Positions 12,250 through 46,706 of a stretch of DNA of 64,000 nucleotides are shown here, piece by piece. The number at the start of each line of letters is the position of its first letter. Position 1 is the stretch's first letter. This stretch comes from Streptomyces coeruleorubidus (GTDB lineage: Bacteria; Actinomycetota; Actinomycetes; Streptomycetales; Streptomycetaceae), in contig NZ_CP118527.1 of the NCBI RefSeq assembly GCF_028885415.1, positions 310,001 through 374,000 on the forward strand, in the 5' to 3' direction. A program made the translations under genes and the position numbers. The notes under the pieces were generated by a model, which was given only the letters and a program-made list of their open reading frames with translations, made no database searches and was not told the origin of the DNA.

Positions 12250-12299
12250 GGTATGCCTCCTGGGGGTGGTGCTACGGGGAAGGAAGGACGACTGGGATG

Positions 12300-12540
12300 G
12301 GGGTCTAAGGGGTGGGGGTCCGCCTCGTCGAATCCGAGGCCCGCGCCGGGGACGACGGTGAGCCCGTGCATGCCGTAGAGGATCCGCCCGTCGGCCGGGG
12401 CGTGGACCGTGTGCTCCCCGCCGTCGGCCGGGTCGATGATGCGGCCGAGGACGTCGCCCCCTGGTCCCGGTACTTCGAGTTCTACGCGGGCGTCGCCGAC
12501 AAGCTCGGCGGGGTTCTTCGTGGCTGTCCGTGCGGGACGA
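12300..12540 (-). pseudogene. C-terminal remnant of a succinylglutamate desuccinylase/aspartoacylase-like protein
   Basis: Between the HAD gene and potD lies a minus-strand stretch without its own start that reads GDVLGRIIDPADGGEHTVHA, then PADGRILYGMHGLTVVPGAG. That is the pattern of the C-terminal barrel of the AstE/aspartoacylase (M14-like) family. The zinc-binding catalytic part is absent. It is most simply the tail of a deacylase once encoded in the amine operon, cut off by a deletion. The assignment rests on motif memory and is moderate. Confidence 0.5.
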
Positions 12541-12553
12541 TGTGCGTCGCGCG

Positions 12554-13251
12554 TCAGATGCCGAGCATGGTGTTGAGCTCGTCCAGGGACTTCACCGTCA
12601 CGTAGTCGTAGCCGTGGGTGACCGGGTCGTAGCCGCGGTCCAGGAGGATCAGGTTGCGGAAGCCCATGTCGTGCATCGGCATGTGGTCGTAACGGGTGTG
12701 CGAGGCGACGTGCACGAAGTCCTCGGGGGAGGCGTCGAGCTGGTCGAGCATGTACTCGAACGCGGCGTACCGGGGCTTGTAGTAGCCGGCCTGCTCCGCG
12801 GTGAAGACCGCGTGGAAGTCCGCGCCGAGCCGGGGCACACTCTCCTCCAGGAAGGCGTCGTCGGCGTTGGACAGGATCACCAGCTTGTAGTTCTCGCCCA
12901 TCTTCTTCAGCGGTTCGGGCACGTCGGCGTGCGGGCCCCAGCTGCGCACCCCGTCGGCGAACCGCTTGCCCGCGTCCGGGGCGGCCTTCACACCCCACTT
13001 GCGGCAGACCCGCTCGAAGGAGTCCTGCAGCACCTGCTCGTAGGGGTAGTACTCGCCGCGGACCTGGTCGTAGCGGTAGCCGCGGAACTCCCGCACGAAC
13101 TGGTCCCAGTGCTCGGCGGGGATCTGGTCGCCGACGAGTTCACGCGTGATGGGGTCATCGGCCACTCGATCAACGTGCCGTACTCGATCAACGTGCCGTA
13201 GCAGTCGAACGAGACGTACTTCGGGCGGAACTGAAGCGAGGGAATGGGCAT
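12554..13251 (-). CDS. HAD-family hydrolase (haloacid dehalogenase type II), frameshift and in-frame duplication
   Basis: A HAD-superfamily hydrolase of about 230 residues. Motif I is SFDCYGTLIE with the nucleophile Asp, motif II is VILSNADD, motif III lies around YYKPRYAAFEYML and motif IV is FVHVASHTRYDH. The start is the ATG at 13251 behind AGGAG. Two oddities sit beside the active site: an 18-bp perfect tandem duplication adds a second YGTLIE directly after motif I, and a base is missing near 13157 so that the rest continues in another frame. Type II dehalogenase-like proteins often sit beside amine or amino-acid oxidases; the substrate is unknown. Transcription is with the amine operon. 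Confidence 0.8.
13164..13199 (+). repeat. 18-bp perfect tandem duplication in HAD motif I
   Basis: The unit ACTCGATCAACGTGCCGT occurs twice head to tail (13164-13181 and 13182-13199). It encodes a duplicated YGTLIE on the minus strand, immediately after the nucleophile of the HAD hydrolase. It is in frame. Confidence 0.95.
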
Positions 13252-13366
13252 GAGGATGCTCCTGTCTTGGCTTCGGGGAACTGGTTACGGCCGGTGCGTG
13301 TCTTTTCGGGCATGCCCATGACAGGGATGTCTGGGCGGGGAGCGATGCCGTCGGCATCGCCGGGGA

Positions 13367-14503
13367 TCAGGCGGCGCCGACTCCTGCCGGGGCGAGGAAG
13401 TCGATGGGGTGGTCAGTGGTGCCATCGAGTGCCAGGTCGGCGGCGATCTCGCCCATGGCGGGCGAGAGTTTGAAGCCGCTGCCGGAGAATCCGGCCATGA
13501 CGACGATGTCGTCCTCGCCGGGGAGGTGACCCACGAGCGGGTTTCCGGACTCCGTGTAGCCCTCCATGTAGACCGACAGCCTGATGGGGTCGGGGTTCAG
13601 ATCGGGCATCAGCTCGCCGATGAGCTCGTGGAAGGTGGCGAGTTCCTCCGGGCGGACCGTACGGTCGAGCCGTTCGGGCTCGGGCACCGGCAGATAACGG
13701 GCGAGGGACAGGCCCAGCTTGACGGAGATGCCGTCGGGCGACGGGAGCCCGTAGCAGTCATGGGGTGTGCTGCGTACGAAGGCGGGGGCGCCGCCCGCGA
13801 ACCAGTCGTGCCGGGTGGGGAGATGCCAGGAGCTGATCAGCCGGCGGATGTCGACGGACCGCGGCAGGTCCGGGAGCAGGGTGTTGATCCAGGGGCCCAC
13901 GGTCACCACCGCGGTGTCGACGTGGTCCGCGCCGTGGTCGGTGACGATGTGCACCCCGCCGCCCGCCGCGGGGGTGATCTCCCGCACCGGCGTGTAGCGG
14001 TGCAGCCGGGCGCCCAGCTGTTCGGCGTGGGTGGCGGCGGCCTGGATCGACGCCTCGGGCCGGATGATGGCGCCCATCCGGTCGAGGACGGCGGTGTGCC
14101 CGTCCGGGAGGCGGTGCTGGGGGTAGCGGCGGGCGAGTTCCTCCCGGTCCAGTACCTCGTGGTCCAGCCGGTGGGTGGCGCTGGAGGAGAGGAGAAGGCG
14201 CATCGACGGCGAGGCGGTCTCTCCCATCACCAGGCATCCGCTGCGGCGTCGCAGTGAGGAGCCGGTTTCGCGCTGGAGACGGTCCCACATCCGGTCGGCG
14301 AGCCGCAGCAGCGGGATGTACCCGGGGTCGCTGAGGTGGACGGCGCGGAAGATGCGGGTCTCGCCCCCGGCGGCGCCACGGTCGTGACCCGGCGCGTACC
14401 GGTCGTAGCCGATGACCTCGGCTCCGCGGGCGGCAAGTCGCCACATGACCTGGCTGCCCATGCTGCCGGCACCGATCACGGCGACGCGCTTCGGGATGCG
14501 CAT
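13367..14503 (-). CDS. FAD-dependent oxidoreductase, SolA / N-methyl-amino-acid oxidase-like
   Basis: A 378-residue flavoprotein of the DAO family. The N-terminal dinucleotide-binding motif is VAVIGAGSMGSQVMWRLAAR, followed by VIGYDRYAPGHDRGAAGGET, which is the monomeric sarcosine oxidase/N-methyltryptophan oxidase pattern. The C-terminus has CYGLPSPDG, ESGNPLVGHLPGEDDIVVMA and the GFSGSGFKLSPAMGEIAAD motif that carries the covalent-flavin region in relatives. I chose the ATG at 14503 because AAAGGAG lies upstream; the open frame continues 45 codons further. It is the first gene of the leftward operon and diverges from pucR. It probably demethylates or oxidises a secondary amine. Confidence 0.88.
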   Translation of the reverse strand: MRIPKRVAVIGAGSMGSQVMWRLAARGAEVIGYDRYAPGHDRGAAGGETRIFRAVHLSDPGYIPLLRLADRMWDRLQRETGSSLRRRSGCLVMGETASPSMRLLLSSSATHRLDHEVLDREELARRYPQHRLPDGHTAVLDRMGAIIRPEASIQAAATHAEQLGARLHRYTPVREITPAAGGGVHIVTDHGADHVDTAVVTVGPWINTLLPDLPRSVDIRRLISSWHLPTRHDWFAGGAPAFVRSTPHDCYGLPSPDGISVKLGLSLARYLPVPEPERLDRTVRPEELATFHELIGELMPDLNPDPIRLSVYMEGYTESGNPLVGHLPGEDDIVVMAGFSGSGFKLSPAMGEIAADLALDGTTDHPIDFLAPAGVGAA

Positions 14504-32004: not shown

Positions 32005-32550
32005 GATGAGGGCTCCTCTGCTGAAATGCCTGGGCTGTACGCCCGCTGGGATACGTCGTGTCCGCAGAGCCGGCTCCCGGCTCCGGCCGTCTCGCCGTGC
32101 GGCGGGGCTGCGCGGCACGGGTGCTTGCCTGCCCACGAAGACAGGCCTTCCTGGGGTCCGTGCGGATGGGTGGCCGCCCCGGTTTGCCGAACTCTCGGGC
32201 GGATTACAGCGGCTCTGACCAGAGTGGTTGTGAACGTGCGCTTGAACCTTGTCATCGGCGTACCGGGCTGCTGCGCTGGGTTGACCGCGAGCACCGCACC
32301 GGGTTGAGGTCCGTGACGTCAGTAATAGTGAACGTTCACGCGGCGAGCGTAATGACGGACCACATTCCGGTCAAGGCTCTGTACGACAACACTTGCGCCC
32401 CCGGTGTGACTTCATCGGTTGGCCGCGTTCCTGAAGGGCAGCGGGGGCATGGAAACCTGCCCGGACGGCCGCGTCCTGGCTGGTGGAGGAGACGTAGGGG
32501 GCCCATGCGACGGGCCGCCCCTGGGAGTTGGGTGAGGGAGCGATGGAGCT
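32005..32550. other. Promoter region of the GH42/importer operon
   Basis: 546 bp between the LacI gene and the binding-protein gene, both leftward. It contains the palindromic operator at 32328-32339 and no convincing gene. Confidence 0.7.
32328..32339. promoter_or_regulatory. LacI-type operator GTGAACGTTCAC
   Basis: A perfect 12-bp palindrome with a central CG, the hallmark of LacI-family sites. Closely related sites occur upstream of other pectin-region genes (36313, 36348, 42129, 42163). It is probably bound by the adjacent LacI protein, its fused paralogue, or both. Confidence 0.75.
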
Positions 32551-33702
32551 CTACCGGAGGATGTCTGAGGTCCTTGCCGGGCCCGTCGACTCGCGCAGCA
32601 CGAGGTGTGAGTTGAGGTCCAGGTGGAGTTCCGGCTCCGCCTCCTGGCGGATGCGGGCGAGCAAAGCCTTCATGGCCTGGCGTCCCATGGCCTGGCGGTC
32701 GAGTTCCACTGTTGAGATGGAGGGATTGAAGTACGCGGTGAACTCCTGGTTGTCCCAGCCGAAGACGCTCACGTCCTGCGGGACCCGCCATCCGCGGTCC
32801 TGGAACCCGCGTATGACGCCCATGGCGACGTCGTCGTTCGCGGCGAGCACCGCGGTGACGCCGGAATCCGCCGACAGGCTCTGGGCCGCGTCGTATCCGG
32901 ACCTCACCGACCAGTCACCGTCGATGACGGCGTAGTTCTCCAGGCCGCGCTCCGCGATCGTCCGCAGATAGACCTCGCGTCGCTTGCGTGCCGACATCCA
33001 GTCCGTGCTGCCGGCGACATGGATGAAGCGTCGATGGCCTATGGAGGCGAGGTAGTCGATGATTTTGGCGGCCGGCTCGCCGTCCGCCGTGATGCCGTGG
33101 GACCGCATCTGGTCGTCGTACTCACCGACGACCACGGTCGGGGTGTGCTCGAGTCCGAGCTGTTCGATGTCGCCGATGGGCGTGAAGGTCAGCACTCCAT
33201 CCGCCTGACCGGAGTCCAGCAGAGCACGGACACGGTCTCCCCGGGCCCTTTCGTCGCCTTCCAAGCCGACGATGTCCAGCATGTAACCGGCTGCCTGTGC
33301 CTCCGCCGACGCTCCCCGCAGGATCTGCGAGGGCACGAAGGTGATCATGGTCGGCAGGACCACCGTAATGCGGTTCGACTTGCGGGTACGCATCGACCGC
33401 GCCACCAGGTTGGGCCGGTAGTCCAGGTCGGCCACGGCCTGTTCGATGCGCGCCACCGTCTGCGGCTTCAGACCTCCGTTCCCCCGCAGGAAGCGGGAGA
33501 CGGTCTGATGGGACACTCCGGCGTGCGCCGCGACGTCGAGGATGGTGGGCCGTTTCTTACGCGGGGGCTTCGGCCGTTTCTTGTCCTGCTCCGATTGCTC
33601 CGCACTCGCGTCTGCGTCCACAGTTCCGCCCCCGCCGCCTCTCTCCGCCTCTGATGGCCGTCGGTACTCTACTGCCGGGCCCACCGCGACTATCTTCGTC
33701 AT
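32551..33702 (-). CDS. LacI family transcriptional regulator
   Basis: A repressor of about 383 residues. The helix-turn-helix is PTILDVAAHAGVSHQTVSRF, the hinge helix YRPNLVARSMRTRKSNRITV and the effector domain has LDIVGLEGDERARGDRVRAL, SVFGWDNQEFTAYFNPSIST and a C-terminal LVLRESTG. I chose the ATG at 33702 (GAGAG upstream) over the much longer open frame; this leaves a 45-residue acidic/glycine-rich leader before the DNA-binding domain. It sits upstream of the GH42/importer operon and is the close paralogue of the fused regulator at 40342, with the same recognition-helix residues VSHQTVSR. Confidence 0.88.
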   Translation of the reverse strand: MTKIVAVGPAVEYRRPSEAERGGGGGTVDADASAEQSEQDKKRPKPPRKKRPTILDVAAHAGVSHQTVSRFLRGNGGLKPQTVARIEQAVADLDYRPNLVARSMRTRKSNRITVVLPTMITFVPSQILRGASAEAQAAGYMLDIVGLEGDERARGDRVRALLDSGQADGVLTFTPIGDIEQLGLEHTPTVVVGEYDDQMRSHGITADGEPAAKIIDYLASIGHRRFIHVAGSTDWMSARKRREVYLRTIAERGLENYAVIDGDWSVRSGYDAAQSLSADSGVTAVLAANDDVAMGVIRGFQDRGWRVPQDVSVFGWDNQEFTAYFNPSISTVELDRQAMGRQAMKALLARIRQEAEPELHLDLNSHLVLRESTGPARTSDILR

Positions 33703-34054: not shown

Positions 34055-35854
34055 TCAGAGCGCCAGGCTCCACTGCTGGTTCTGACCGCCCAAGCAGTCG
34101 AACTGCTGCAGACGGGCCCCGTCCGCGGTCGAAGCCGAGGTCACGTCCAGGCACTTCCCGGAGTGGCGGGCGACGAGTTCGACGTAGCCGCTGCCGGCAT
34201 CCTGCAGCTGCCACTGCTGGTTGGTGCTGCCCTTGCAGGTCCACTGGATGACCGCAGCACCATTGGCCGTCGAGGCCGAGGACACGTCCAGGCACTTCCC
34301 GGAGTGCTGGGCGACGATCTGGTAGTAGCCCTCACCGACGCTCCGCAACCGCCACTGCTGGTTGTCGCCGCCCTGGCAGCTCAACTGCTGTACCGCGGCC
34401 CCGTCGGCGGTCGAGGAGCCGGCCACGTCGACGCACTTGCCCGAGTGTCGCGCCTTCATCGTCGTCGGGATGAGTTGGGACAGCTGGGCGGTCAGCTCCG
34501 GCACGTAGAAATCGGTGATGCCGGAGATGTTCGGATGGGTGCCACTGCCGCCACTGCCCGGGTAGCCGTTGACGAGGCCGTCGAAGGTGTACGCCACTCG
34601 TTGGGCGTCGACACGGGTGTCGAGCGTCGTGTTCGCGAAGACGTCGGCGACCGCAACGCCCCACTTCAGGGCGGCCTGCAGGTTGATCTGGCGCAGGGCG
34701 AGCTGGGTGTCCCAGTCACGCGAGCCCATCTTGTGGGCGGCCACGTACACGAGTTGGGCGGCCGGCCACTTCTGCCGCATCGTGTAGATGGTGTTCTCCA
34801 GAGCACCGGCGTAGGTGCCCGTGTTGAACGTGGTGGGATCCTTGGAGCCGCTGACGGTGCCGATCGCGTACGTCAGATTGTCGTGGATCTCGATGGCGTC
34901 GTTCGTGCCACCGTCGAAGACGACGAAATCGGGCGCCTGTGAGCTGGCCGACCGTACCTGAGTGATGATCTGCCCACCGCTGGCGTTGGGCGCCGGACCC
35001 ACGGTCGCGCCGTTCCTGGCGTACTTCGTCAGCGTCATTCCCTCACGTTCGGAGACGAAGTTCAGGAAGCTGCGCGAGTACTGGTGCCCGAAGACGATGC
35101 TGTCGCCGAAAGCGTAGACGGATTTGCCGGCGAGGGATCCATAGGCGGAGTTAGCGGGCCGGACCAGCCGGAAGTTGTCGATCGACTGCTTGCCGGTTCC
35201 GTAGTAGTTGCAGGCGACGAGCTTGGCGAGGTTCTTGCCCGTGATGCCCCCCGTCCCGGAGGCCATCACTCTCGGCGCGGCCTCCTTGCTGATGATCGCG
35301 TACTGGACCTTGCCGAGGGTGAAGTCCATGTGCAGATCGACCGTGTACCACTTGGTCCGGTCGAAAGCGATCTTGGTCCAGGTGGGGTTGAGCGAGTCCG
35401 GGGCGGAGGTGGAGTCCGAGTCGGGCCCGGTCACGGCGTAGCGGAGTTCAGCGGCGGTCGCGGCGATCCCGAAGACGAGCCGTCCGCTGTCGTCGCGCAG
35501 TTCCATACCGGTTTTCATCGCGGTGCTGGCGATGTCCGTCTTCCAGTCGAAGCGCAGATCCAGCGTCTTCTCGTGCAGGGTCGACGACACGAACGGTCGC
35601 ACGGAAGTCGTGTAGTTGCCCATGTTCTGCGTGACGCTCAGAACGCCGTTGCCGATCCCGGCTCCGACCGGGAATCCGAAGTTCGCGGGATCGGTCTGGG
35701 CCTCGAAAGCCTCGTTGATCAGCGTCGCGCCGGGGGTTTCCGCGGCCGAGGCGGCGGAAGGAGTGAGGAGGGCCGACAGGAGCAGGGCTCCGGCGACGAG
35801 GGGGCCGGCCAACTTTCGGTGCCAGGAGCCCGGTCTGCCTATGACGGTGTGCAC
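34055..35854 (-). CDS. Secreted SGNH/GDSL esterase with C-terminal ricin (CBM13) domain
   Basis: A secreted protein of about 599 residues. The start is a GTG at 35854 with AAGGGAG upstream, giving the signal LAGPLVAGALLLSALLTPSAASA. An N-terminal beta-sandwich-like region of about 200 residues precedes the esterase core, which has block I YAFGDSIVFGHQYS (catalytic Ser), block II-III DFVVFDGGTNDAIEIH and block V SGTHPNISGITDF (catalytic His). The last 130 residues form a ricin trefoil with three HSGKCxDV...QQW repeats. Likely substrates are acetyl groups on pectin or hemicellulose; the exact one cannot be read. It diverges from the GH43 galactanase across two operators. Confidence 0.85.
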   Translation of the reverse strand: MHTVIGRPGSWHRKLAGPLVAGALLLSALLTPSAASAAETPGATLINEAFEAQTDPANFGFPVGAGIGNGVLSVTQNMGNYTTSVRPFVSSTLHEKTLDLRFDWKTDIASTAMKTGMELRDDSGRLVFGIAATAAELRYAVTGPDSDSTSAPDSLNPTWTKIAFDRTKWYTVDLHMDFTLGKVQYAIISKEAAPRVMASGTGGITGKNLAKLVACNYYGTGKQSIDNFRLVRPANSAYGSLAGKSVYAFGDSIVFGHQYSRSFLNFVSEREGMTLTKYARNGATVGPAPNASGGQIITQVRSASSQAPDFVVFDGGTNDAIEIHDNLTYAIGTVSGSKDPTTFNTGTYAGALENTIYTMRQKWPAAQLVYVAAHKMGSRDWDTQLALRQINLQAALKWGVAVADVFANTTLDTRVDAQRVAYTFDGLVNGYPGSGGSGTHPNISGITDFYVPELTAQLSQLIPTTMKARHSGKCVDVAGSSTADGAAVQQLSCQGGDNQQWRLRSVGEGYYQIVAQHSGKCLDVSSASTANGAAVIQWTCKGSTNQQWQLQDAGSGYVELVARHSGKCLDVTSASTADGARLQQFDCLGGQNQQWSLAL

Positions 35855-36312
35855 GTTGATCTCCCTTGATCTGCGGTGATGTCGACCGGTGCCCGGTGAG
35901 GAGAAGAAGTCCTGGCCATGGCGCCAGCGGAAGGTGGGTGGTCCGCCTCGGATCCGCGGCTCGCTGGAACCGAGCCGACTCGGCACTCGCCAGGCTCGGA
36001 TCGTGCGGAGCCGAGCAGGGCGCCGAGCCGGACAGGTCTCCGCCACCCGGACTCACACCACACCTAACGGCGCGGACGCGACGCCCACCGCCCGAAAGTC
36101 TCGCCGCTCAGCGCGGCACAGGCGGACGCACCACAGTGACAGCCCTGCCAAGACGGCCTCCTCTTAACAGCGGTGCGACCGTGTGCCGGCATTGCTGTGC
36201 GGTCACGTCACCGACGCGTCGGGGCCCCACGACGATGCTCGCCGGTGGTACCTGCTCAGTGGTAAGAATCACCGGGAAGGACGTGGAGCCCGACAACTGC
36301 AGAGGCAAGGTA

Positions 36313-36324
36313 GTGATCGATCAC
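36313..36324. promoter_or_regulatory. LacI-type operator GTGATCGATCAC
   Basis: Perfect 12-bp palindrome, 282 bp before the GH43 start and 459 bp before the divergent esterase start. Its centre is 35 bp from the next site, which suggests cooperative or bidentate binding. Confidence 0.72.
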
Positions 36325-36347
36325 CTTGATGGTCAAGATGTCTGCGC

Positions 36348-36359
36348 GTGATCGTTCAC
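36348..36359. promoter_or_regulatory. LacI-type operator GTGATCGTTCAC
   Basis: One mismatch from perfect symmetry; the second member of the pair between the esterase and GH43 genes. Confidence 0.7.
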
Positions 36360-36594
36360 CTTTGCTGGGGCCATCAACCTCGTAGAACGAGCCGATCCGG
36401 CCCCGCTGCGGCCACTGCGGGGTCGCCGCCGACCCCCAACCGCGGTGCACTAACCTCGTTCACCCCATTGACACACAAGCATTTCCGCCAGTCTGATGTG
36501 CGGCATCGTTGGTTTCAGCCAGCTTTTGATCGCTTGTGTTCTGCCGTGTTGCCTTCGTGTCGCGACCGGCACCCCGAAAGTGGAGGCACATTCC

Positions 36595-38022
36595 ATGCGC
36601 CGCGCTTGGCTCCTGGCCCTCACCCTGTTCATCGCCCTGCTGCCGCAGACGTTTCTGACCGGCAGCGCACACGCGGCGACTGTCACTATCGCAAACGCCA
36701 CCCAGTTCACCGACACCACGGGTGCGGTGGTGCACGCCCACGGTGGTGGCGTGATCAAGGTCGGCTCGTACTACTACTGGTTCGGTGAGAACCGCAACGA
36801 GGACAACACCTTCCGGTACGTCTCCGCGTACCGCTCGACCGACCTGAAGAGGTGGGAGTTCAGACGCCACGTCCTGACCCAGGCGACCGACCCCGAGCTG
36901 GCCGTCGCCAACATCGAGCGGCCCAAGGTGATTTTCAACAGCACCACCGGCAAGTTCGTGATGTGGATGCACAAGGAGAACGGCAGCGACTACAACCAGG
37001 CCCGCGCGGCCGTCGCCGTCTCCGACACCGTCGACGGCGACTACACCTGGCAGGGCAGCTTCCGCCCGCTGGGCTACATGTCCCGTGACATCACGCTGTT
37101 CCGGGACGACGACGGCACCGGCTACATGATCTCCGCGGCCAACAACAACCGCGACCTGCACGTCTACCGCCTCAGCGCCGACTACCTGACCGTCGAGAGC
37201 CGGGTCCAGCTGCTGTGGCCGGGCCAACTGCGTGAGGCCCCGGCGATGTTCAAGCGCAACGGCGTCTACTTCCTGCTCACCTCCGGCGCCACCGGCTGGA
37301 ACCCCAACCAGCAGAAGTACGCCACCGCCAGCAGCGTCACCGGCACCTGGAGCGAGCCACAGAACATCGGCGACTCCACCGCGTACGGCTCCCAGACCGC
37401 CTACGTCCTGCCCGTGCAGGGCACCTCCGGCACCGAGTACCTGTACATGGGCGACCGTTGGGGCAACTCCTTCGCCCAGAACGTGAACGCCTCCAAGTAC
37501 GTCTGGCTGCCGCTGGAGTTCCCCACCGACACCACCATGACCATGGACTGGTTCCCGCAGCTCTCCATCGACACCGCCACCGGCAAGGTCGACGGCGTCG
37601 GCGGACCGTGGGAGACCCTCGCCGCCCGCCACAGCGGCAAGTGCGTCGACGTACCGAGCAGGTCCGTGGACAACGGGATCCAGCTCACCCAGTACACCTG
37701 CAACGGCGGTATGAACCAGGCCTGGTGGTTCAAGGACCTCGGCAGCGGATACGTCCAGCTCATGGCCAAGCACAGCGGCAAGTGCATGGACGTGGCCGAC
37801 AACTCCACCGCCGACGGCAACAAGATCATCCAGTGGCCCTGCTCCAGCGGCTCCAACCAGCAGTGGCAGCTCCAGGACGCCGGCGACGGCTACGTCCGCC
37901 TGGTCTCCCGGCTCAGCGGCAAGTGCCTGGAGGTCAGCGCCGCGTCCACCACCAACGGCGCCAAGCTGGTCCAGTTCACCTGCGGCACCGGCACCCACCA
38001 GCAGTTCAAGCGCGGAGCCTGA
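36595..38022 (+). CDS. Secreted GH43 galactan 1,3-beta-galactosidase-like enzyme with CBM13
   Basis: A 475-residue secreted enzyme. It starts at the ATG at 36595 (GGAGG upstream) with the signal LLALTLFIALLPQTFLTGSAHA. The GH43 domain has the subfamily-24 look of exo-beta-1,3-galactanases: TQFTDTTGAVVHAHGGGVIK, YYYWFGENRNEDNTFRYVSA, STDLKRWEF. The C-terminal 130 residues are a ricin trefoil (three HSGKCxDV repeats). The same GH43-CBM13 architecture is known in streptomycete exo-1,3-galactanases that trim arabinogalactan backbones. It is the first gene to the right of the paired operators. Confidence 0.85.
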   Translation: MRRAWLLALTLFIALLPQTFLTGSAHAATVTIANATQFTDTTGAVVHAHGGGVIKVGSYYYWFGENRNEDNTFRYVSAYRSTDLKRWEFRRHVLTQATDPELAVANIERPKVIFNSTTGKFVMWMHKENGSDYNQARAAVAVSDTVDGDYTWQGSFRPLGYMSRDITLFRDDDGTGYMISAANNNRDLHVYRLSADYLTVESRVQLLWPGQLREAPAMFKRNGVYFLLTSGATGWNPNQQKYATASSVTGTWSEPQNIGDSTAYGSQTAYVLPVQGTSGTEYLYMGDRWGNSFAQNVNASKYVWLPLEFPTDTTMTMDWFPQLSIDTATGKVDGVGGPWETLAARHSGKCVDVPSRSVDNGIQLTQYTCNGGMNQAWWFKDLGSGYVQLMAKHSGKCMDVADNSTADGNKIIQWPCSSGSNQQWQLQDAGDGYVRLVSRLSGKCLEVSAASTTNGAKLVQFTCGTGTHQQFKRGA

Positions 38023-38153
38023 CCCACCCGCCCGACTTCCTGAGCGGAAACCTTCCAGGGCTCTCCCCCGGGAGTCCGCGCGCCAGCGCATGACTGACGA
38101 CACCAGCAGTTTCATCATTCGGCGGCTGATCGCCGTAACACGGAGGTAGTCCA

Positions 38154-40151
38154 ATGACGTCGAACCGCGATCTGTGGTCCCGCCGCAGATTCCTCACCAC
38201 AACCGGGGCGGTGACCCTGGGAGGCGCCGCCCTCAATCTCGTCGGAGGCCTCCCGCAGGCCCATGCGGCCGGCGTGGTGTCCTACGTCGACACCTCGAAG
38301 TCCACGTACGACAAGCTCGTACTGATGGTTGACGACAAGCCCTTCTACCACAGTGGGGTCCAGTTCCGGTACGAGAAGCACAAGTACACGTTCGGCTGGA
38401 CGGACGCCCAGTTGAAGCCGGTGCTCGGGATGATTCGCGACGACGGGTTCACCGTGGTGAACATCCCGATCTGGTGGTCGAAGGTGGAGACCTCGAAGGA
38501 CGTTTTCGACTTCACCGACATCGACCGGTACCTGGCCTGGTGCGGGGAGTACGGCCTCAAGCTGGAACTCCTGTGGTTCGGCCACGAATCGACCGGTTCG
38601 TCCATGGCGCCCCGGATGCCGGCCTACGTGATGAACGACTACCAGTTCGTGGTGAGGTCCGACGGCACCAGGCTGGTCCTGAACGGCAACCCTCTCCTGG
38701 ACAAGACCGACCCGAACCTGCTCGCCAGGGAGAAGTTCGTACTCGGCCGGCTCATGACCCACCTCGCGTCCGCCGACACCGCTCACACCGTCGTCGGCAT
38801 CCAGGTGCTGAACGAACCGAACGTGTCGAAGCAGCAGGGCGGCTCGTCCATCGACCGGAGCTACAGCACCTACAGCACGGACCGCTGGAACAGCGGCGGG
38901 TACACCGACGCGACGAAGTTCCGCAAGGACGTGCTGCTGAACTACCTGACCCAGCTGGGACAGGTGATCAAGCAGTCGGATTACTCGGTGTACACCCGGA
39001 CCAATATCGCCGGCAGCGGGGACACGGTGCCGGTCGCCGAGAACGAGGTCCTCAGGGCCCAGGGGACGTCGACCATCGACTTCTTCGGGAAGGACCCGTA
39101 CACCACGGGCCTCGACACGCTCTACAACTACGGGAGGGACGCCGTCTGGGCCCAGGGGAAGAACTTCCCCATGATCATGGAGAACTTCGGAGGAACCCCG
39201 GCAGCGGACGTCGAGAAGTTCAACGGCATCGCCGGCAACACCGCCTTCAATCTGTACGCCGCCCTGGACCCTGACTCCAGCACGGGCAGCAGCAACCACG
39301 GCTTGTACGACTTCAACCCCACCACCAAGGTGGTCACCCGCAAGGCCGTCTCGGACAAGGTCGCCCGGCTCAACCACGTGCTGAACAAGATCCATCGGGA
39401 CCTCGCCAGCAAGCTTCCGGTGGAACGCGGCGGAACCAACCTGCAGACGTTCAACCGGAGCGCGACCGCCAGCACCACCACCACCAAACCCGTGGGCGGC
39501 GTGGACATCACGTTCACGACATCGAGCGGTGCGCAGGCACTCGCCGTCAGGCGCGGTGCGGCCGAGTTCGCTCTCACCACCACGACCCAGGCCACGTTCA
39601 CACTGCCGGGCACCACCGGCGTCGTACGGTCCGTCGAGGCCGGACGCTACGACGCAAACGACAACTGGGTGAAGGCCGGCACCAAGACGTACAGCACGGT
39701 CTCGGGGAACACCGCCATCGACCTGGCAGCCGGCGAATGCGTGCGGGTCCTCTACCTGGTCAGCGGCGCGACCTACAAGCTCAGGCACTCCTCCTCGGGC
39801 CAGTACCTCGACACCGACCTCAACGGTGCGGTCCTGCTGGCGGCCAAGAGCACCTACGACGACCAGGACTGGATCGTCGCCCAGGACTCGTCCGGATCCT
39901 GGACCATCAAGAACGCCAGGACGGGGCGCAACTACCTGGAAACCGTGTCCAGCAACAACGGCGTCATCTGGAATTCCGGCACCATCTCGGCCAGCTCACT
40001 GTGGACCCTGGAAGGGGTTGCGACAGGCGGGCTCCGCGTGAACAACAACCAGACCGGAAGGGCGTACCTGTACAGGACCTCGGCGGGTGAGGTGAAGTGG
40101 AACACCGGAACGCAGGACACGAGCACGGTCTGGGTGTTTGAAGCGAAGTAG
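38154..40151 (+). CDS. Secreted clan-A glycoside hydrolase (GH5/GH35/GH42-like) with ricin-like tail
   Basis: A 665-residue protein with a Tat signal (SRRRFLTTTGAVTLGGAAL). The TIM-barrel region has FHSGVQFRYEKHKYTFGW-like start sequence, the acid/base pair VLNEPNVS (Glu at about residue 221) and a nucleophile candidate in FPMIMENFGGTP. This fits a retaining clan-A beta-glycosidase similar to GH35/GH42 enzymes, but I cannot fix the family. A beta domain follows, then a C-terminal trefoil-like module (YKLRHSSSGQYLDTDLNGAV, ITKNARTGRNYLETVSS-like). It is transcribed with the GH43 gene 131 bp upstream and ends in a very strong terminator. Confidence 0.78.
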   Translation: MTSNRDLWSRRRFLTTTGAVTLGGAALNLVGGLPQAHAAGVVSYVDTSKSTYDKLVLMVDDKPFYHSGVQFRYEKHKYTFGWTDAQLKPVLGMIRDDGFTVVNIPIWWSKVETSKDVFDFTDIDRYLAWCGEYGLKLELLWFGHESTGSSMAPRMPAYVMNDYQFVVRSDGTRLVLNGNPLLDKTDPNLLAREKFVLGRLMTHLASADTAHTVVGIQVLNEPNVSKQQGGSSIDRSYSTYSTDRWNSGGYTDATKFRKDVLLNYLTQLGQVIKQSDYSVYTRTNIAGSGDTVPVAENEVLRAQGTSTIDFFGKDPYTTGLDTLYNYGRDAVWAQGKNFPMIMENFGGTPAADVEKFNGIAGNTAFNLYAALDPDSSTGSSNHGLYDFNPTTKVVTRKAVSDKVARLNHVLNKIHRDLASKLPVERGGTNLQTFNRSATASTTTTKPVGGVDITFTTSSGAQALAVRRGAAEFALTTTTQATFTLPGTTGVVRSVEAGRYDANDNWVKAGTKTYSTVSGNTAIDLAAGECVRVLYLVSGATYKLRHSSSGQYLDTDLNGAVLLAAKSTYDDQDWIVAQDSSGSWTIKNARTGRNYLETVSSNNGVIWNSGTISASSLWTLEGVATGGLRVNNNQTGRAYLYRTSAGEVKWNTGTQDTSTVWVFEAK

Positions 40152-40189
40152 GCGGTACCCCCGCGTCGCGGGGTGGTCTGATCAGCGGG

Positions 40190-40230
40190 GTGTCCGGTTC
40201 GCCGGCCGTGACGGCCGGCGAACCGGACAC
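40190..40230 (+). terminator. 18-bp perfect-stem terminator
   Basis: GTGTCCGGTTCGCCGGCC (40190-40207) pairs perfectly with 40213-40230 around a GTGAC loop. It follows the glycoside hydrolase gene and precedes the fused regulator's promoter, so that regulator is a separate transcription unit. Confidence 0.88.
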
Positions 40231-40310
40231 CGTCGTCTCGGGCGCCCGTCACATATGTACACGGTGCATGGCGGGCCCCGATCACCGAGGGTGTCCGTCC
40301 TCGCGAAATA

Positions 40311-40335
40311 TTCGAACGTACGTCTGTGTAATGAT
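40311..40335 (+). promoter_or_regulatory. Putative leaderless promoter with palindrome before the AbiEi-LacI gene
   Basis: TTCGAACGTACGT (40311-40323, containing the palindrome ACGTACGT at 40316-40323) is followed by TAATGAT (40329-40335), a possible -10 element only six bases before the ATG at 40342. No ribosome site is present, so the message may be leaderless. AbiEi proteins usually repress their own promoter through inverted repeats, and this palindrome is a candidate autoregulatory site. Confidence 0.4.
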
Positions 40336-40341
40336 TGCTGA

Positions 40342-42039
40342 ATGGGGCAGGCTGATGTGCTGAAGGCGCTGGAGGACAGGGCCGCCGACCAGTGGGGCCT
40401 GGTGACCACCGCCCAGGCGAAGCTGGACGGCGTGCAGGGAGTACAGCTCCTGAGGCTGGAGCGCGCCGGGCTGCTGGAGAGCGTCGGCCACGGGGTGTAC
40501 CGCATGGCCGCCTTCTCTCCGCCGGAGCACCTGAGGGTCAAGGTCGCATGGCTGCGGCTGGATCCCAGGACGCCGGTGCGGCACCGCGACACCGAGAGCC
40601 CCAGGTCGGGCGTCGTCTCGCACGCCTCCGCGTGCGCGGTGCACGGACTGGGCGAGTGGCCTGCCGATCGCGTAGAGCTGACCGTTCAGGTACGCCGTAC
40701 CACCCGTGACGAGAGCGTGGTGCTGCACTGCGCGCGGACGGATGCCGAGGACATCACCGTCGTCGACGGCCTGCCCGTCACCACGGTGCGGCGGACCGTC
40801 GTCGACCTGCTGCGCGTCCGTGCCGACGCCGCCCGTGTCGGCGCGGTCGTCGCCGAAGCCGCTTCCCGTGGCCTGGTGGACGTCGACGACTTGGCGGCGC
40901 GGATCGGGTCCTTCGCCGGTGCCTACGGCCTGCCCGCGGAGGCGTCCGGTGCGCAACTGCTGCAGTTCCTGTGCGAGCGGGCGGGACGCCCCCTGCGCGT
41001 GAGGAAGGCCGAGCGGGCCGCCGCGGCGGGAACGGAACCGGAGAAGAAGCGGGCGACCATCTGGGAGGTGGCCCGGAGGGCCGGGGTGTCGCACCAGACC
41101 GTCTCCCGGTACCTCAAGAACGACGGCGGCATGAGGCCGGCGACGCGAGCGAGGATCGAGCGTGCCGTGGCCGAATTGAAGTACCGGCCCAACCTCATAG
41201 CGCGGTCCATGCGCACCCAGCGGTCCAACCGGATCACCATCGTGCTGCCCGAACTGAGCAGCTTCGTTCCGATTCCCTTGCTGAGGGGTGCGTCGGCCGC
41301 CGCGCACGAGGCCGGCTACCTGACGGACGTCATCGGCCTGGAGGGCGGGGAGTCGCGGCGAGCGCAGAGCGTGATGTCCCTGCTGGACGCCAAGCAGGCG
41401 GACGGCGTGCTGTCGCTGGTGCCGTTGGCGGACATGCCCGGCGGCGCCGAGGCCGGGCAACGGCCCGTCGTGGTGCTGGGCGAGTACGACGACAATCTGC
41501 ACTCCCGCGGGCGGCTGGCTGACGGGCGGCCCGCCGAACAGATCCTGCGTCACCTCGCGGACCAGGGGCACCGCCGGTTCCTCCACGTCGCCGGCTCGCA
41601 GGAGTGGGCCTCGGCGCGCAACCGGCGTGCGGTGTACGTGGAGGCGATCGAGCGGCTGGGCCTGGAGTCCTACGGCGTCATCGACGGCGACTGGTCGATG
41701 CGCTCCGGATACGACACCGCTCGGGACCTGCCGCCCGATTCCGGCGTGACGGCTGTGCTGGCCGCCAACGACTACGTCGCCATGGGTGTGATCCGCGGCT
41801 TCCAGGACCGTGGATGGCGCGTCCCGGAGGACGTCAGCGTGTTCGGCTGGGACAACGAGGAGTTCACCCAGTACTTCTCGCCGGCCATCTCGACGGTGCA
41901 CATCAACAAGGAAGAGGTCGGCCGCCGGGCGATGCTGTCACTGCTCGCCCTCCTGCGCGGCGAGCCCGCGCCCGTGACTGACGTCGACGACCTGTTCCGC
42001 ATCGTTCCGCGCGATTCGAGCGGCCCAGCCCCCCGGTAG
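40342..42039 (+). CDS. AbiEi antitoxin-domain / LacI-family fusion regulator
   Basis: A 565-residue protein in one uninterrupted frame. Residues about 1-213 are an actinobacterial AbiEi-type antitoxin: an N-terminal winged helix (DQWGLVTTAQAKLDGVQGVQ, RLERAGLLESVGHGVYRMAA) and the AbiEi core (VVSHASACAVHGLGEWPADR, ITVVDGLPVTTVRRTVVDLL). A short basic/alanine linker (about 214-236) leads to a complete LacI repressor: helix-turn-helix at about 238-284 (ATIWEVARRAGVSHQTVSRY), hinge YRPNLIARSMRTQRSNRITI and effector domain to about 550 (SVFGWDNEEFTQYFSPAIST). No AbiEii toxin is encoded nearby. The LacI half is a paralogue of the regulator at 32551. Two operators lie just downstream, before the oxidoreductase operon. 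The protein probably has two separate DNA-binding modules. Confidence 0.88.
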   Translation: MGQADVLKALEDRAADQWGLVTTAQAKLDGVQGVQLLRLERAGLLESVGHGVYRMAAFSPPEHLRVKVAWLRLDPRTPVRHRDTESPRSGVVSHASACAVHGLGEWPADRVELTVQVRRTTRDESVVLHCARTDAEDITVVDGLPVTTVRRTVVDLLRVRADAARVGAVVAEAASRGLVDVDDLAARIGSFAGAYGLPAEASGAQLLQFLCERAGRPLRVRKAERAAAAGTEPEKKRATIWEVARRAGVSHQTVSRYLKNDGGMRPATRARIERAVAELKYRPNLIARSMRTQRSNRITIVLPELSSFVPIPLLRGASAAAHEAGYLTDVIGLEGGESRRAQSVMSLLDAKQADGVLSLVPLADMPGGAEAGQRPVVVLGEYDDNLHSRGRLADGRPAEQILRHLADQGHRRFLHVAGSQEWASARNRRAVYVEAIERLGLESYGVIDGDWSMRSGYDTARDLPPDSGVTAVLAANDYVAMGVIRGFQDRGWRVPEDVSVFGWDNEEFTQYFSPAISTVHINKEEVGRRAMLSLLALLRGEPAPVTDVDDLFRIVPRDSSGPAPR

Positions 42040-42128: not shown

Positions 42129-42140
42129 GTGAACGATCAC
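42129..42140. promoter_or_regulatory. LacI-type operator GTGAACGATCAC
   Basis: One mismatch from perfect dyad symmetry. It lies 236 bp before the oxidoreductase start, paired with the site 34 bp to its right. Confidence 0.72.
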
Positions 42141-42162
42141 TACGCAACTCTTGACCTCAAAG

Positions 42163-42174
42163 GTGACCGATCAC
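42163..42174. promoter_or_regulatory. LacI-type operator GTGACCGATCAC
   Basis: Second site of the pair before the oxidoreductase operon; a single deviation from perfect dyad symmetry. The 34-bp spacing nearly equals the 35 bp at 36313/36348. Confidence 0.7.
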
Positions 42175-42364
42175 TACGTTCTTGCTGCTGCCACGTCACG
42201 TCGGCGAGCGCCGGCTTCATCCGCGCGATGTCGCTCTGTTCGACCGCGCCCCCGTGAACGCCCCTGGTGGCACATCGACGTGTCGGAGAGGGAGACATGG
42301 CACGCCGAGGCCAGGACCCGGTGCCGCGCCCACCGCAGCACCCCAGCTTCTACGAGAGAGCCAC

Positions 42365-43490
42365 ATGACTGAGGACAGACAGCCTGTGAGGGTGGCGATT
42401 GTCGGCGCCGGAAACATTGCCGGTGGCTGCCACATGCCCGCCGTCCAGGCCCAGAACGGCGAAGCCACCGTCATCGCGGTCGTCGATGTCGACCAGGAAC
42501 GCGCCAAGGCCTTCGCCGCCCAGTGGGACATCCCCGCCGCATATGACGACCTCCGGCAGATGCTCCGGGAGGAGCGCCCCGACCTCGTCATCGTCTGCAC
42601 TCCCCCGGTCGCCCACCGCGAGGCCGTCACCACCTGCCTGGACGCCGGTGCGTGGGTGTGGTGCGAGAAGCCCCCCCCTTTCGGTCGCCGAGTACGACGC
42701 CGTCAGCGCCCACGAACGCGAGGGCGGCCCGTACGCCTCCTACGTCTTCCAGCATCGGTTCGGGTCAGCCGCCCGGGCTCTGCGGGAGCACATCCGCACC
42801 GGCAGCCTCGGCGCTCCCCTGGTCGGTGTCTGCCACACCCTGTGGTACCGGGACGACGCCTACTTCGACGTCCCGTGGCGCGGCAAGTGGGAGACCGAGG
42901 GCGGCGGTCCCACCATGGGCCACGGCATCCACCAGATGGACCTCATGCTGTCCTTGATGGGGGAATGGACCGAGGTCCGCGCCGCCGTAGGCACGTTGGC
43001 TCGCGATGTGGAGACCGAGGATGTCTCCATGGCGATGGTCCGCTTCGCCAATGGAGCCATGGTGTCCATGGTCAACAGCCTGCTCTCCCCCCGCGAGACC
43101 AGTTACCTGCGCTTCGACTTCCCGGAGGCCACGGTCGAGCTGTCCCACCTCTACGGCTACGACAACTCCCACTGGACGTGGACCCCCGCACCCCACCGGG
43201 CCGACGCCACGGCCGCAGAGCTGGGAGCACCGCTCGACGACGAGGCCAGTTCGCATGCCGCACAACTGCGCGTACTGCTGGGGTCGCTGCGCGCCGGAGA
43301 ACGCCCGGAGACCAGTGGTGACGACGGTCGCCGCGCCCTGGCCTTCATCGCCGCCCTGTACGAGTCGGCGACGACCGGGCGCGCCGTCACCCCGGACATG
43401 ATCACCACGGCCAACCCCTACTACCACTCCATGAACGGTCTCCTCGCCGCCGCCCAGGACAACGACGCCAAGGAGAAAACCGGTGTCTGA
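42365..43490 (+). CDS. Gfo/Idh/MocA family oxidoreductase (one frameshift at a C8 run)
   Basis: A dinucleotide-dependent oxidoreductase of about 375 residues. The Rossmann motif is VRVAIVGAGNIAGGCHMPAV, and the family's EKP motif is WVWCEKPP. The frame changes at 42671-42678, a run of eight Cs; with seven Cs the protein continues LSVAEYDAVSAHEREGGPYA in the second frame to 43490. The substrate domain has MGHGIHQMDLMLSLMG, with the catalytic-type Asp/His. It starts at the ATG at 42365. Members act on sugars and uronic-acid derivatives; together with the DUF6807 and cupin genes it suggests conversion of a pectin-derived sugar. Confidence 0.85.
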
Positions 43491-44406
43491 CGCCCACTTC
43501 AGGATCGAGCACGACGACGCCGGGACCGAGTTCGTGGTGTCGGCCGCAGGCACGGAGCTCGCCACGTACGTCTACCGGCCGGACAGTCCGCTCGAGGAAT
43601 CCCCCAAGCCGTATCTCTACCCGTTGAAGACCCTCTCCGGTGCGCCCGTGGGTGTCTACCGGCCCTGGGACCACCGCTGGCACAAGGGCCTGCAGATGAC
43701 CTGGTCGCACCTGTCCGGCGACAACTTCTGGGGCGGGCCCACCTTCGAACATGGCGCGCCCGGCCATGGCTACGTCTGGCGCGAGAACCACGGCCAGCAG
43801 GTACACCGCGCCTTCGACCGGCAGGACGACACCGGCAGCGAGGTGTCGGTCGTCCAGGCCCTGGACTGGTTCGCCTCCAGCGACGAGGTGTGGATCGACG
43901 AGACCCGCACCCTTCGCTTCCACAGCGCCGACACCGACGACGGTGTCTGGGCACTGGACTTCACCACCGCCCTGACCAACGTTCACCACGAGCCCCTGGC
44001 ACTGGGCAGCCCCACCACACACGGCCGCCCCAACGCCGGCTACACAGGACTGTTCTGGCGCGGACCCCGGGCCTGGACCGGCGCGGACGTCATCGCCGAC
44101 GGGGGCCATGAAGGCGACGCCGTCATGGGCACCCAGGGCGCCTGGGCGGCCATCACCGGCGAGCACGACGAGATCGACGGCGGTGCCACGGTACTCGCCT
44201 ACGCCGGCGCCACCAGCGCCTCCGTCCCGCTGAAGTGGTTCGCCCGCAGCAGCGCCTTCGCCTGTCTCAACCCGTCGCCCGCCTTCGACACCGAGATCAA
44301 GCTCGAACCCGGTGAGATCCTTCGCCTGAGCCACCGCTTCGTGTTCATCGACCGCACGGTGGGCCGCCGTGAACTCGAGCCGATCGCCCAGAGGTTCGCG
44401 CCATGA
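43483..44406 (+). CDS. DUF6807 (PmoA-like) family protein
   Basis: A 307-residue protein with no signal peptide, starting at a GTG with AAGGAG upstream that overlaps the oxidoreductase end by eight bases. Family landmarks are PKPYLYPLKTLSGAPVGVYR, PWDHRWHKGLQMTWSHLSGD, with the conserved DHRWHKGL, and NFWGGPTFEHG. Members of this family sit next to Gfo/Idh/MocA enzymes in sugar loci, but their chemistry is not established. The repeated histidines may bind a metal or sugar. Confidence 0.8.
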   Translation: MSDAHFRIEHDDAGTEFVVSAAGTELATYVYRPDSPLEESPKPYLYPLKTLSGAPVGVYRPWDHRWHKGLQMTWSHLSGDNFWGGPTFEHGAPGHGYVWRENHGQQVHRAFDRQDDTGSEVSVVQALDWFASSDEVWIDETRTLRFHSADTDDGVWALDFTTALTNVHHEPLALGSPTTHGRPNAGYTGLFWRGPRAWTGADVIADGGHEGDAVMGTQGAWAAITGEHDEIDGGATVLAYAGATSASVPLKWFARSSAFACLNPSPAFDTEIKLEPGEILRLSHRFVFIDRTVGRRELEPIAQRFAP

Positions 44407-45146
44407 CCGCACTCCCCGACTTCCCCGGAGCCGTGGGGCTCAGCCAGCTCGACGTGTACCCCTGGCCCACGGCGGACGACGAACACGGCGGCTCCCCCCA
44501 CATGCACCTCGTCTGCGCGGAGTGCTACGTCGTGGTCAGTGGCCGCGGTCGGCTGGAGACCCTCAACTACAGGGGCCACACGACGACCGAGCTGCGCCCC
44601 GGAGACACGGTCTGGTTCACCCCGGGCACGATCCACCGCGCCATCAACGACGAAGACCTGCGGGTGGTCGTCGTCATGCAGAACAGCGGCCTTCCCGAGG
44701 CGGGTGATGCGGTCATGACCTTCCCGCCCGCGCACCTCTCCGCCGAGACCTACCCGGACGCGGCCTCGCTCCTCGACGCCGACGGCAACCCCACCCCCGA
44801 GCGCGCCCGGGAACGCAGGGACCTGGCCGTCGAGGGGTTCAGGGAGCTGACGCGGCAGTGGCGGCGCGGCAACCGCTCGGCGTACGAGGACTTCTGCGCG
44901 GCAGCCGTGCGACTCGTCCAGCCACGCCTGGACGCCTGGGAGAAGACAGTCAACGACGCTGCGCTGGCCGCCGCACAGGCGGCGCTGTGGCAGATCAGCG
45001 CGCTGCGGAACGGCGACTTCAACCACCTGTTCAAGGCGACCGTCTCGCGTATCGCGCAACCGCCCCGGCAGACCCTGGGCATGTGCGGTTTCCTGCGCGC
45101 CTACGACCCGGTCCGCCGGGCCGGCACATCGGCCGAGCCTCAGTGA
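44403..45146 (+). CDS. Cupin domain-containing protein
   Basis: A 247-residue protein. The N-terminal cupin has GSPHMHLVCAECYVVVSGRG and PGDTVWFTPGTIHRAINDE, giving the His-His-Glu/His metal site of the two cupin motifs. The C-terminal 130 residues are helical and lack a recognised domain. It overlaps the DUF6807 gene by four bases (ATGA). Likely an isomerase, epimerase or sensor in the same sugar pathway; the exact function is unknown. Confidence 0.8.
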   Translation: MTALPDFPGAVGLSQLDVYPWPTADDEHGGSPHMHLVCAECYVVVSGRGRLETLNYRGHTTTELRPGDTVWFTPGTIHRAINDEDLRVVVVMQNSGLPEAGDAVMTFPPAHLSAETYPDAASLLDADGNPTPERARERRDLAVEGFRELTRQWRRGNRSAYEDFCAAAVRLVQPRLDAWEKTVNDAALAAAQAALWQISALRNGDFNHLFKATVSRIAQPPRQTLGMCGFLRAYDPVRRAGTSAEPQ

Positions 45147-45216
45147 CGCCCCACTCCCCGAACGTGTCCGAACAGGTTCCGCTCTGCCCGGGTTCGAACG
45201 AAGGAAAGTGTTTCGC

Positions 45217-46706
45217 ATGAGTTCGATGCTGCCGGAAGGCGGTGGGAGCGCCGACGCGGCGACCACCCCGATCTTGTCCGGGATGTACCCCGACCCATCG
45301 GTGTGCCGGGCCGGCGACGACTACTTCCTGGCCAATTCGTCGTTCGAGTACAGCCCCGGCGTCCCGATCTGGCATTCCCGGGACCTGGTGTCCTGGCGTC
45401 AGATCGGCAACGCCCTGACGAGGGACGATCAGTTCCCCGCGGGCCGGTCGCCGTCGAGCCGCGGCGTCTACGCCCCGACGCTGCGCCACCACGAGGGACG
45501 GTTCTGGCTGATCACCACGAACATCGACGACGCTCGGGGTGGTCATCAGATCTACCACGCGACCGACCCGGCCGGGCCGTGGTCCGCGCCGGTGTGCCTG
45601 ACCGGACTCGACGGCATCGACCCGGACCTGGCCTGGGACGACGAGGGAACGTGCCTGGTCACCTACTGCTCGTGGTCGGAGACCGAGATCGGCATCAGGC
45701 AGGCCGCGGTCGATCCGGAGCGGGGCGTGCTCCTCGAACAGCCGCGGTGGATCTGGCACGGCACCGGCCTGGCCCATTCCGAGGGGCCGCACCTTTACCG
45801 GCGCGGCGACTGGTGGTACCTGGTCATCGCCGAAGGCGGCACCGACCGGGGCCATGTGGTGTCGGTCGCGCGCTCACGCCGCCCCGAGGGCCGTTCGAGG
45901 CCGCTCCGCACAATCCGGTCTTCAGTCACCGCAGCACGGCTCATCCCGTCCAGAACGTCGGTCATGCCGATCTGGTCGAGCGCCCCGACGGGACGTGGGC
46001 AGCGGTGTATCTCGGCACACGTCCGCGAGGCCGCAGTCCGCGTTTCCACGTCAATGGGCGTGAGACGTTCCTCGCCGACGTCTCCTGGGTGGCGGACTGG
46101 CCGCGGTTCGAGCCGGCGAGCCTGCGCGTCCCCACCGGGCAGCGGGACTTCGAGGACGACTTCAACGCGCCCGGACTGCATCTGAGGTGGGTCTCGCCGG
46201 GAGAGCGTCCCGACCGACTCGTCCACAGCGTGCCGGAAGGGGTGGTCGTGGGGCACGCACCGAGCGAGACCGGTGAGCCCTCGGGTCTGTTCACCCGCGT
46301 CGGCGGAGACCACTGGGAGGCCGACTTCCTCGTCGAGCCGGGAGAGGGCGCGTTCACCGTCGCGCTACGGCTCGATGGTGCCCATTGGTACGGGCTGCGC
46401 GTCGCCGACGGCGAAGTCACGGCCGTCGCACGGGTCGGGCAGGTCCGAGCGGTTCTCGGATCCCGCCCGCTGCCCGGCTCCCCTGTCCTCCTCCGCATCC
46501 GGTCCACGGAGCCGACCTGGAACGGACCGGACGACATCGAGCTGGGCATCGGTGACGGAGCCGGTACCGATGTCCTCGCCCGCCTGGACGGGCGCTATCT
46601 CTCCACCGAAGTGGCGGGCGGGTTCACCGGGCGCTTGGTCGGTGTGTGGACCGAGTCGCGGGAGGTCCTCGTCCGCCGGGTCCGGTTCGCCGAACAGCGG
46701 GCGTGA
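45217..46706 (+). CDS. Cytoplasmic GH43 beta-xylosidase/alpha-arabinofuranosidase (one frameshift)
   Basis: An enzyme of about 496 residues without a signal peptide, starting at the ATG at 45217. The first strand GMYPDPSVCRAGDDYFLANS contains the catalytic-base Asp, and the acid Glu lies in HSEGPHLYRRGDWWYLVIAE. The frame changes near 45895 (run at GGGCCG) and continues PHNPVFSHRSTAHPVQNVGH, the family's H-rich active-site loop, then a C-terminal beta-sandwich (GH43_C2) to 46706. It is the last gene of the oxidoreductase operon. It would remove arabinose or xylose from imported oligosaccharides. Confidence 0.87.

Follow-up and report, generated by a model that had tools for sequence, protein, structure and literature searches.

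Here, we describe a gene of Streptomyces coeruleorubidus in which a complete AbiEi antitoxin (residues 1-220, as judged by profile, sequence and predicted fold) is joined in a single reading frame to a complete LacI regulator (residues 237-565). The gene lies in a 64,000-nucleotide stretch of contig NZ_CP118527.1, hereafter the window, to which all positions refer unless a locus is named. The fusion has one common origin, and in five of the six genomes that encode it the cognate toxin is absent; the two halves of its antitoxin part are under unequal selection, a repeat of the AbiEi type is conserved at its start codon, and the layout of LacI-type operators downstream is conserved as well. The reading that we favour, with modest confidence, is that of a domesticated antitoxin, in which the winged helix of the former antitoxin would autoregulate a sugar repressor.

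Architecture and distribution of the fusion

The first-pass annotation of this DNA had proposed an uninterrupted AbiEi-LacI frame of 565 codons, with two DNA-binding modules and a sugar-type sensor in one protein. Domain searches with the translated frame matched both AbiEi and LacI profiles and bore out this architecture, and the frame is open in all six genomes. The gene is divided as follows.

40342..42039, + strand: fused gene, 565 codons, AbiEi antitoxin plus LacI regulator (frame, profile and sequence evidence)
40342..40521, + strand: AbiEi winged helix-turn-helix, residues 1-60 (AbiEi_4 profile at 10-55)
40522..40986, + strand: AbiEi C-terminal (antitoxin) domain, residues 61-215 (fold match to 6y8q and 1zel)
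40987..41049, + strand: linker, residues 216-236, for the most part of low confidence (pLDDT <50 at 221-235)
41050..41217, + strand: LacI HTH and hinge, residues 237-292 (profile match)
41218..42036, + strand: LacI sugar-sensor domain, residues 293-565 (profile and structure search)

The combination by which AbiEi proteins are recognized, a winged helix followed by the AbiEi C-terminal domain, is seen in the fusion by profile and predicted fold, and so is the one that characterizes the LacI/GalR family, a LacI HTH followed by a periplasmic-binding-protein-like sensor. The secondary structure predicted for the winged helix is H3-15, E20-22, H23-28, H33-41, E45-49 and E52-55. Because the model of the full-length protein had a pTM of 0.47 and the corresponding structure search returned mainly LacI entries, the N-terminal part was folded separately. 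The fusion proteins are 565 or 571 aa long, and in-frame indels in the linker leave the frame intact. Candidate start codons inside the antitoxin domain are present in all six fusions, and a GTG at residue 220 in the window and in L003 is a possible separate start for the LacI part. For L034-L037, separate translation of LacI from a start in the linker is ruled out, given that no in-frame ATG, GTG or TTG follows residue 197 up to the LacI HTH.

A scan of contigs for close relatives yielded three loci, one of which, in Streptomyces sp. TRM68367 (L003), encodes the same fusion, 92% identical to that of the window over 565 residues. With residues 1-230 as the query and at most seven candidates scored per genome, 25 of 392 Streptomyces genomes were matched, and five of the 392 encode the fusion, the window's own included (G000, G123, G342, G098 and G247). 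The search of actinobacterial proteomes for the same architecture, suggested at first pass, was thus positive in five further Streptomyces genomes, which brings the known fusions to six genomes, all at the same locus. The 28 match rows of the Streptomyces search comprise 5 fusions, 11 near solo relatives and 12 weaker relatives. Two of the 11 are second copies at the opposite end of a linear chromosome, leaving 9 solo loci for study; the 12 weaker rows were searched with tblastn for LacI matches of at least 40% identity, and two of them were also translated.

Across the class, residues 1-230 matched 24 of 394 genomes at E 1e-20, and among those 24 genomes no close LacI half (E 1e-100) was found except in the window's own. 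Twenty loci were fetched for these genomes, and at the 19 other than that of the window tblastn detected no LacI match of at least 40% identity. Likewise, 198 relatives of G123, a set that overlaps the first one, yielded 10 matches to residues 1-230 and no new fusion. Because the genome searches gave so few carriers, the fusion is, in the samples seen, a rare architecture confined to one Streptomyces group.

Genomic context and origin of the two parts

At all six loci, a DUF4978 gene precedes the fusion, and Gfo/Idh and DUF6807 genes follow it. A cupin gene, whole or partial, is also found at all six, and a GH43 gene, partial in some, at five, with no match in L035. The neighbouring features in the window are listed below.

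32575..33564, - strand: unfused sibling LacI, about 62% identical, HTH nearly identical, present in all six fusion clusters
34055..40151: upstream genes, GDSL with ricin lectin (-), GH43 with ricin lectin (+) and DUF4978 (+)
40189..40231: strong terminator-like hairpin without a T run, lying between the upstream and fused genes (fold z -5.97)
42365..46706, + strand: downstream genes, Gfo/Idh, DUF6807, cupin and GH43, of which Gfo/Idh and GH43 are frameshifted in the window

The GH42, GH43, GDSL and ricin-lectin genes of the cluster point to a plant polysaccharide as its candidate substrate. The hairpin upstream of the fusion recurs in L034 (z -5.83) and L003 (z -3.09), three loci having been folded. 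Compared with L003, where both genes are intact, the Gfo/Idh (42365-43487) and GH43 (45217-46706) genes of the window each contain a frameshift, which may reflect either decay or assembly error. The GH43-ricin gene of the window is apparently mostly deleted in L003, where two near-end pieces match at 5319-5728. Furthermore, L105 (G294:C27) contains, at 9351-13897, a degraded cluster in which the sibling LacI is present and the fusion is missing, with fragments of the GDSL, DUF6807 and GH43 genes close to each other.

In the phylogeny of AbiEi, all six fusions group together (100/99) within the solo antitoxins of Streptomyces. Identity to the AbiEi part of the fusion is 43-67% for the nine near solo genes, those of G090 and G158 being the closest (67%). 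In the LacI tree, which leaves out loci L059 and L062, the fusions again form one clade (100/99), and the unfused LacI of Kutzneria is its sister (97/96). This nearest LacI relative, about 70% identical and 338 aa long, is encoded beside the same genes, upstream of an ABC transporter and of the same Gfo/Idh, DUF6807 and cupin genes. No AbiEi match was found at the Kutzneria locus, nor in three more distant Streptomyces clusters with a LacI (L106-L108). Given that the nearest LacI relative is unfused and that the near solo AbiEi genes all have a toxin match downstream (9 of 9, broken in L039 and partial in L045), the fusion is most simply viewed as the derived state.

We propose that, in one Streptomyces lineage, a mobile AbiEi gene became fused in frame to lacI at the 5' end, bringing along its promoter and the final repeat of its operator, and that the toxin gene was not retained at the locus. 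A mobile donor would fit the occurrence of solo AbiEi relatives near both chromosome ends (G090:C1, 97907 and 10168055; G346:C1, 15079 and 8200333) and on Streptomyces plasmids, the latter at no more than 51% identity. A search of a phage collection gave no match that would indicate a phage source of the AbiEi half. In L011 and L016, the solo AbiEi carries a long repetitive C-terminal tail before the toxin gene; the fusion has no such tail.

Selection, operators and the fate of the antitoxin

Across all 15 fusion pairs, which are few, related and non-independent, omega (Nei-Gojobori, 300 codon bootstraps) is 0.21 (0.10-0.37) for the winged helix, 0.53 (0.36-0.75) for the antitoxin domain, 0.19 (0.07-0.39) for the LacI HTH and 0.24 (0.18-0.33) for the LacI sensor. 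For L034-L037 alone, the values are 0.03 for the winged helix and 0.51 for the antitoxin domain. In three sets of solo antitoxins, which leave out L040 and L045, omega of the antitoxin domain is 0.17, 0.20 and 0.22. Thus, the winged helix of the fusion is under strong purifying selection, and the antitoxin domain is relaxed. Given the omega values of its two halves, translation of the AbiEi part and selection on it are very likely, the selection being strongest on the DNA-binding half and weakest on the antitoxin half. Retention of residues that are invariant among the solo proteins does not separate the halves: with 8 solos, 16 of 18 such residues are kept in the winged helix vs 48 of 61 in the antitoxin domain (p 0.50), and with 9 solos, 11 of 12 vs 39 of 52 (p 0.27).

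The following putative operator elements were located.

40326..40341, + strand: AbiEi-type repeat touching the ATG; 15-mer GTGTAATGATTGCTG at 40326-40340, 14-bp repeat frame at 40328-40341
42129..42140: LacI-type operator 1 of the downstream operon, GTGAACGATCAC
42163..42174: LacI-type operator 2, in the spacer between TTGACC (42151-42156) and TACGTT (42175-42180)
36313..36359, - strand: paired LacI-type operators facing the GDSL gene and sharing this promoter layout
32328..32339: one LacI-type operator, upstream of the gene for the solute-binding protein

A connection with an AbiEi operator had been suggested at first pass, and it is supported by the putative repeat that touches the start codon of the fusion. 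The matrix of the 14-bp repeat has the consensus GTAACTATCTCTGC. The solo promoters (8 of the 9 solo loci, the gene of L045 having been left out) each contain three or four repeats above the random 99% level, up to two of them in reverse orientation (about -101/-90 and -71/-58) and two in forward orientation (-48/-36 and -17/-14). By contrast, the fusions retain a single repeat, at -14, which scores 14.5 in four loci and 9.7 in the window and L003, the latter being little above the score of 8.8 that is exceeded by the best site in 1% of random 229-mers. The own-promoter repeat is the top-scoring site in five of the six fusion loci; this is not so in the window, where the matrix scan found a further site scoring 11.4 at 36503. 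Each of the six fusion genomes has a single exact match to the 15-mer, at the start of the fusion. When up to two mismatches are allowed, one extra place each appears in G123, G247 and G342 and none in G000, G392 and G098, compared to one place in one genome for the reversed-pattern control. Between the two fusion subclades, 15 of the 16 bases from -16 to -1 are identical, and the bases from -80 to -17 align no better than shuffled sequence. The repeat overlaps a -10-like TAATGAT, and no Shine-Dalgarno sequence is seen before the fused gene, so that its mRNA is likely to be leaderless. As part of the 15-mer is the -10-like hexamer, the 15-mer may owe its conservation to a leaderless promoter and not to repressor binding.

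Under the domestication reading, the AbiEi half would have largely lost the constraint on the antitoxin domain and kept the winged helix, which would bind the single repeat over the -10 region and the start codon and repress the fused gene. The DNA-binding half of the antitoxin was probably retained, then, to control the fused gene's own promoter. According to two studies, AbiEi and Rv2827c are monomers that autorepress through promoter repeats (PMC3985639, PMC7319586). In the fusion, dimerization of the LacI part may substitute for the repeat array used by monomeric AbiEi, and one repeat might now be sufficient because LacI dimerization would deliver two winged helices together. Counting against autorepression is the very fact that one repeat is left, with a window copy that scores 9.7 against a random 99% level of 8.8; moreover, AbiEi repression is reported to require the full-length protein (PMC3985639), yet the C-terminal half is relaxed here. 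Alternatively, the AbiEi half could be a passenger: the repressor would have gained a new promoter and a new start from the fusion, and the former antitoxin would do no more than fold. In favour of this are the single remaining repeat, which overlaps the -10-like hexamer, and the relaxed antitoxin domain. However, constraint on the winged helix matches that on the LacI HTH (0.21 and 0.19), in L034-L037 this module is all but frozen (0.03), and the conserved block extends past the -10 hexamer, so that we consider this scenario unlikely.

The LacI half has candidate targets of its own. The pattern GTGANCGNTCAC, drawn from the pair at 42.1 kb and its Kutzneria counterparts, has 18 matches in the 9.4-Mb genome of the window vs 2 for the reversed pattern, which is the fair control. 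A P value of 1e-11 computed for the operators does not count as a test, given that the pattern came from two of these very sites and their Kutzneria counterparts. Five sites lie within 10 kb around the gene (32328, 36313, 36348, 42129 and 42163), and three of these (32328, 36313 and 36348) were not used in drawing the pattern. Located at the promoters of the cluster, they are candidate palindromic operators with a central CG. In two places, 42129/42163 and (opposite strand) 36348/36313, an operator is followed by TTGACC, an 18-base spacer containing the second operator, and TACGTT or TACCTT; all six fusion loci and Kutzneria preserve the layout at 42129/42163. No LacI-type operator was found between the previous gene and the fused start at any of the six loci. 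Judging from its family and this layout, the LacI half would repress the sugar-degradation promoters of the cluster via the paired operators and would presumably be released by binding a breakdown sugar. The sibling LacI may share these operators with the fusion.

A more elaborate version of domestication, which we put forward only tentatively, is that the antitoxin was recruited with its promoter as the autoregulatory head of the sugar repressor, yielding one ligand-sensing polypeptide with two unrelated operator codes. The LacI half would silence the catabolic promoters, and the antitoxin half, dimerized by LacI, would gate its own leaderless promoter via the single leftover repeat, possibly looping to the LacI operators, such that the sugar signal would also set the supply of the repressor.

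LacI proteins are able to loop DNA. Somewhat less plausible than the passenger scenario is the possibility that the winged helix provides an additional contact at the LacI targets or close to them, or loops the fused promoter to the LacI operators. The AbiEi repeat does have LacI-type operators on both sides, 1.8 kb downstream and 4 kb upstream, and a site scoring 8.4 lies between the paired operators at 36332-36345, with the same letters in L003, L036 and L037. In addition, four fusion loci share a conserved repeat-like site scoring 11.4-11.9 (L034:3536, L035:3604, L036:16071 and L037:3692), at a distance of about 0.2 kb from the operator that precedes the gene for the solute-binding protein. 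Judging from the random-sequence scores, a few sites such as these and those at 36503 and 36332 are expected by chance in about 20 kb. However, even with up to two mismatches, the 15-mer is confined to the fused promoter in G000, G392 and G098, and the extra places in G123 and G247 are not near any operator among the matches listed. Around the 42.1-kb operators the matrix scores fall below 0, and a TTGAC promoter element overlaps the 8.4 site. Hence the extra DNA contact at LacI targets envisaged at first pass finds weak support at most: the exact 15-mer is absent from these targets in the window's genome, and no repeat within 150 bp of an exact LacI operator in the six loci scores above 8.4, which is less than the 8.8 that marks the 1% random level.

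The absence of a toxin gene near the fusion, already noted in the window at first pass, holds throughout: no toxin match was detected downstream of the fusion at any of the six loci. Of the 19 other loci fetched across the class, 15 have a toxin match within the 1.5 kb covered. The fusion loci do not have the AbiEii nucleotidyltransferase gene directly downstream that marks an AbiE system. The toxin of G090 belongs to Pfam AbiEii (E 4.6e-25), and no relative of it was found at E 1e-3 in five of the six fusion genomes, G098 and G392 being draft assemblies in this search; the sixth, G247, has a relative adjoining its own solo AbiEi. In the proposed whole-genome search for a solitary AbiEii, the window's genome gave two Pfam AbiEii matches, one of them above the cut-off (G000:C1:3126812-3127498; L047:4555-5553). 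Compared by BLAST with the toxin of G090, that protein shows no meaningful similarity (E 3.0), and the gene adjoining it has no Pfam match. That the fusion is still an antitoxin, coupling toxin control to a sugar signal, is disfavoured and in our view very improbable. The antitoxin domain does retain some constraint (omega 0.53, i.e., <1) and, in the predicted model, the AbiEi fold, and G247 has an additional solo AbiEi-AbiEii pair. Nevertheless, no relative of the cognate toxin was detected in five of the six genomes, and the lone above-cut-off protein of G000 is unlike it and has a neighbour without a Pfam match. Finally, an artefact of assembly or gene calling that joined two genes, to which the frameshifts in two genes close downstream might point, has a negligible probability and is rejected, because the same frame is shared by six genomes, in all of which one common error is not plausible, and four of the six have no in-frame start codon between residue 198 and the LacI HTH.

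Relation to known systems

Antitoxins are often suspected of turning into ordinary regulators. In the present case, the two parents can be recognized, five of the six genomes lack the cognate toxin, the antitoxin has retained one of its halves with the other loosening, and an operator trace is left. Judged by its sequence, the fusion would be a natural dual-code repressor for asking what orphan antitoxins do. The two families are known; within the literature searched, neither the architecture nor the apparent domestication had been described. No AbiEi-LacI fusion was found in the openly licensed papers searched, including passages of PMC9127804 and PMC6504116, and within that literature the first-pass statement that no regulator of this build has been described holds.

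The closest antitoxin is the AbiEi of the AbiE type IV toxin-antitoxin system (AbiEi of S. agalactiae, 6y8q; PADLOC AbiEi; Pfam AbiEi_4), from which the fusion differs in having no adjacent AbiEii, one repeat instead of three or four, a fused LacI and a relaxed antitoxin domain. Rv2827c of M. tuberculosis is reported to be a solo antitoxin with an adjacent DUF1814 gene (PMC3985639), unlike the fusion. Among LacI/GalR regulators of glycoside clusters, the closest one found is that of Kutzneria sp. 744 (L004:8007-9023), which shares with the fusion the HTH, hinge and sensor, paired operators in the same layout and the Gfo/Idh-DUF6807-cupin neighbourhood, but at 338 aa contains no AbiEi. In Kutzneria, LacI-type operators also precede lacI itself (7901 and 7934), although these may belong to the divergent gene; the fusion has none in this position. 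Although it is part of an AbiE system and, unlike the protein described here, not fused to LacI, the AbiEi of Mesorhizobium huakuii is reported to act as a wide regulator (PMC8436566) and offers a precedent for an AbiEi protein with an effect beyond its own operon.
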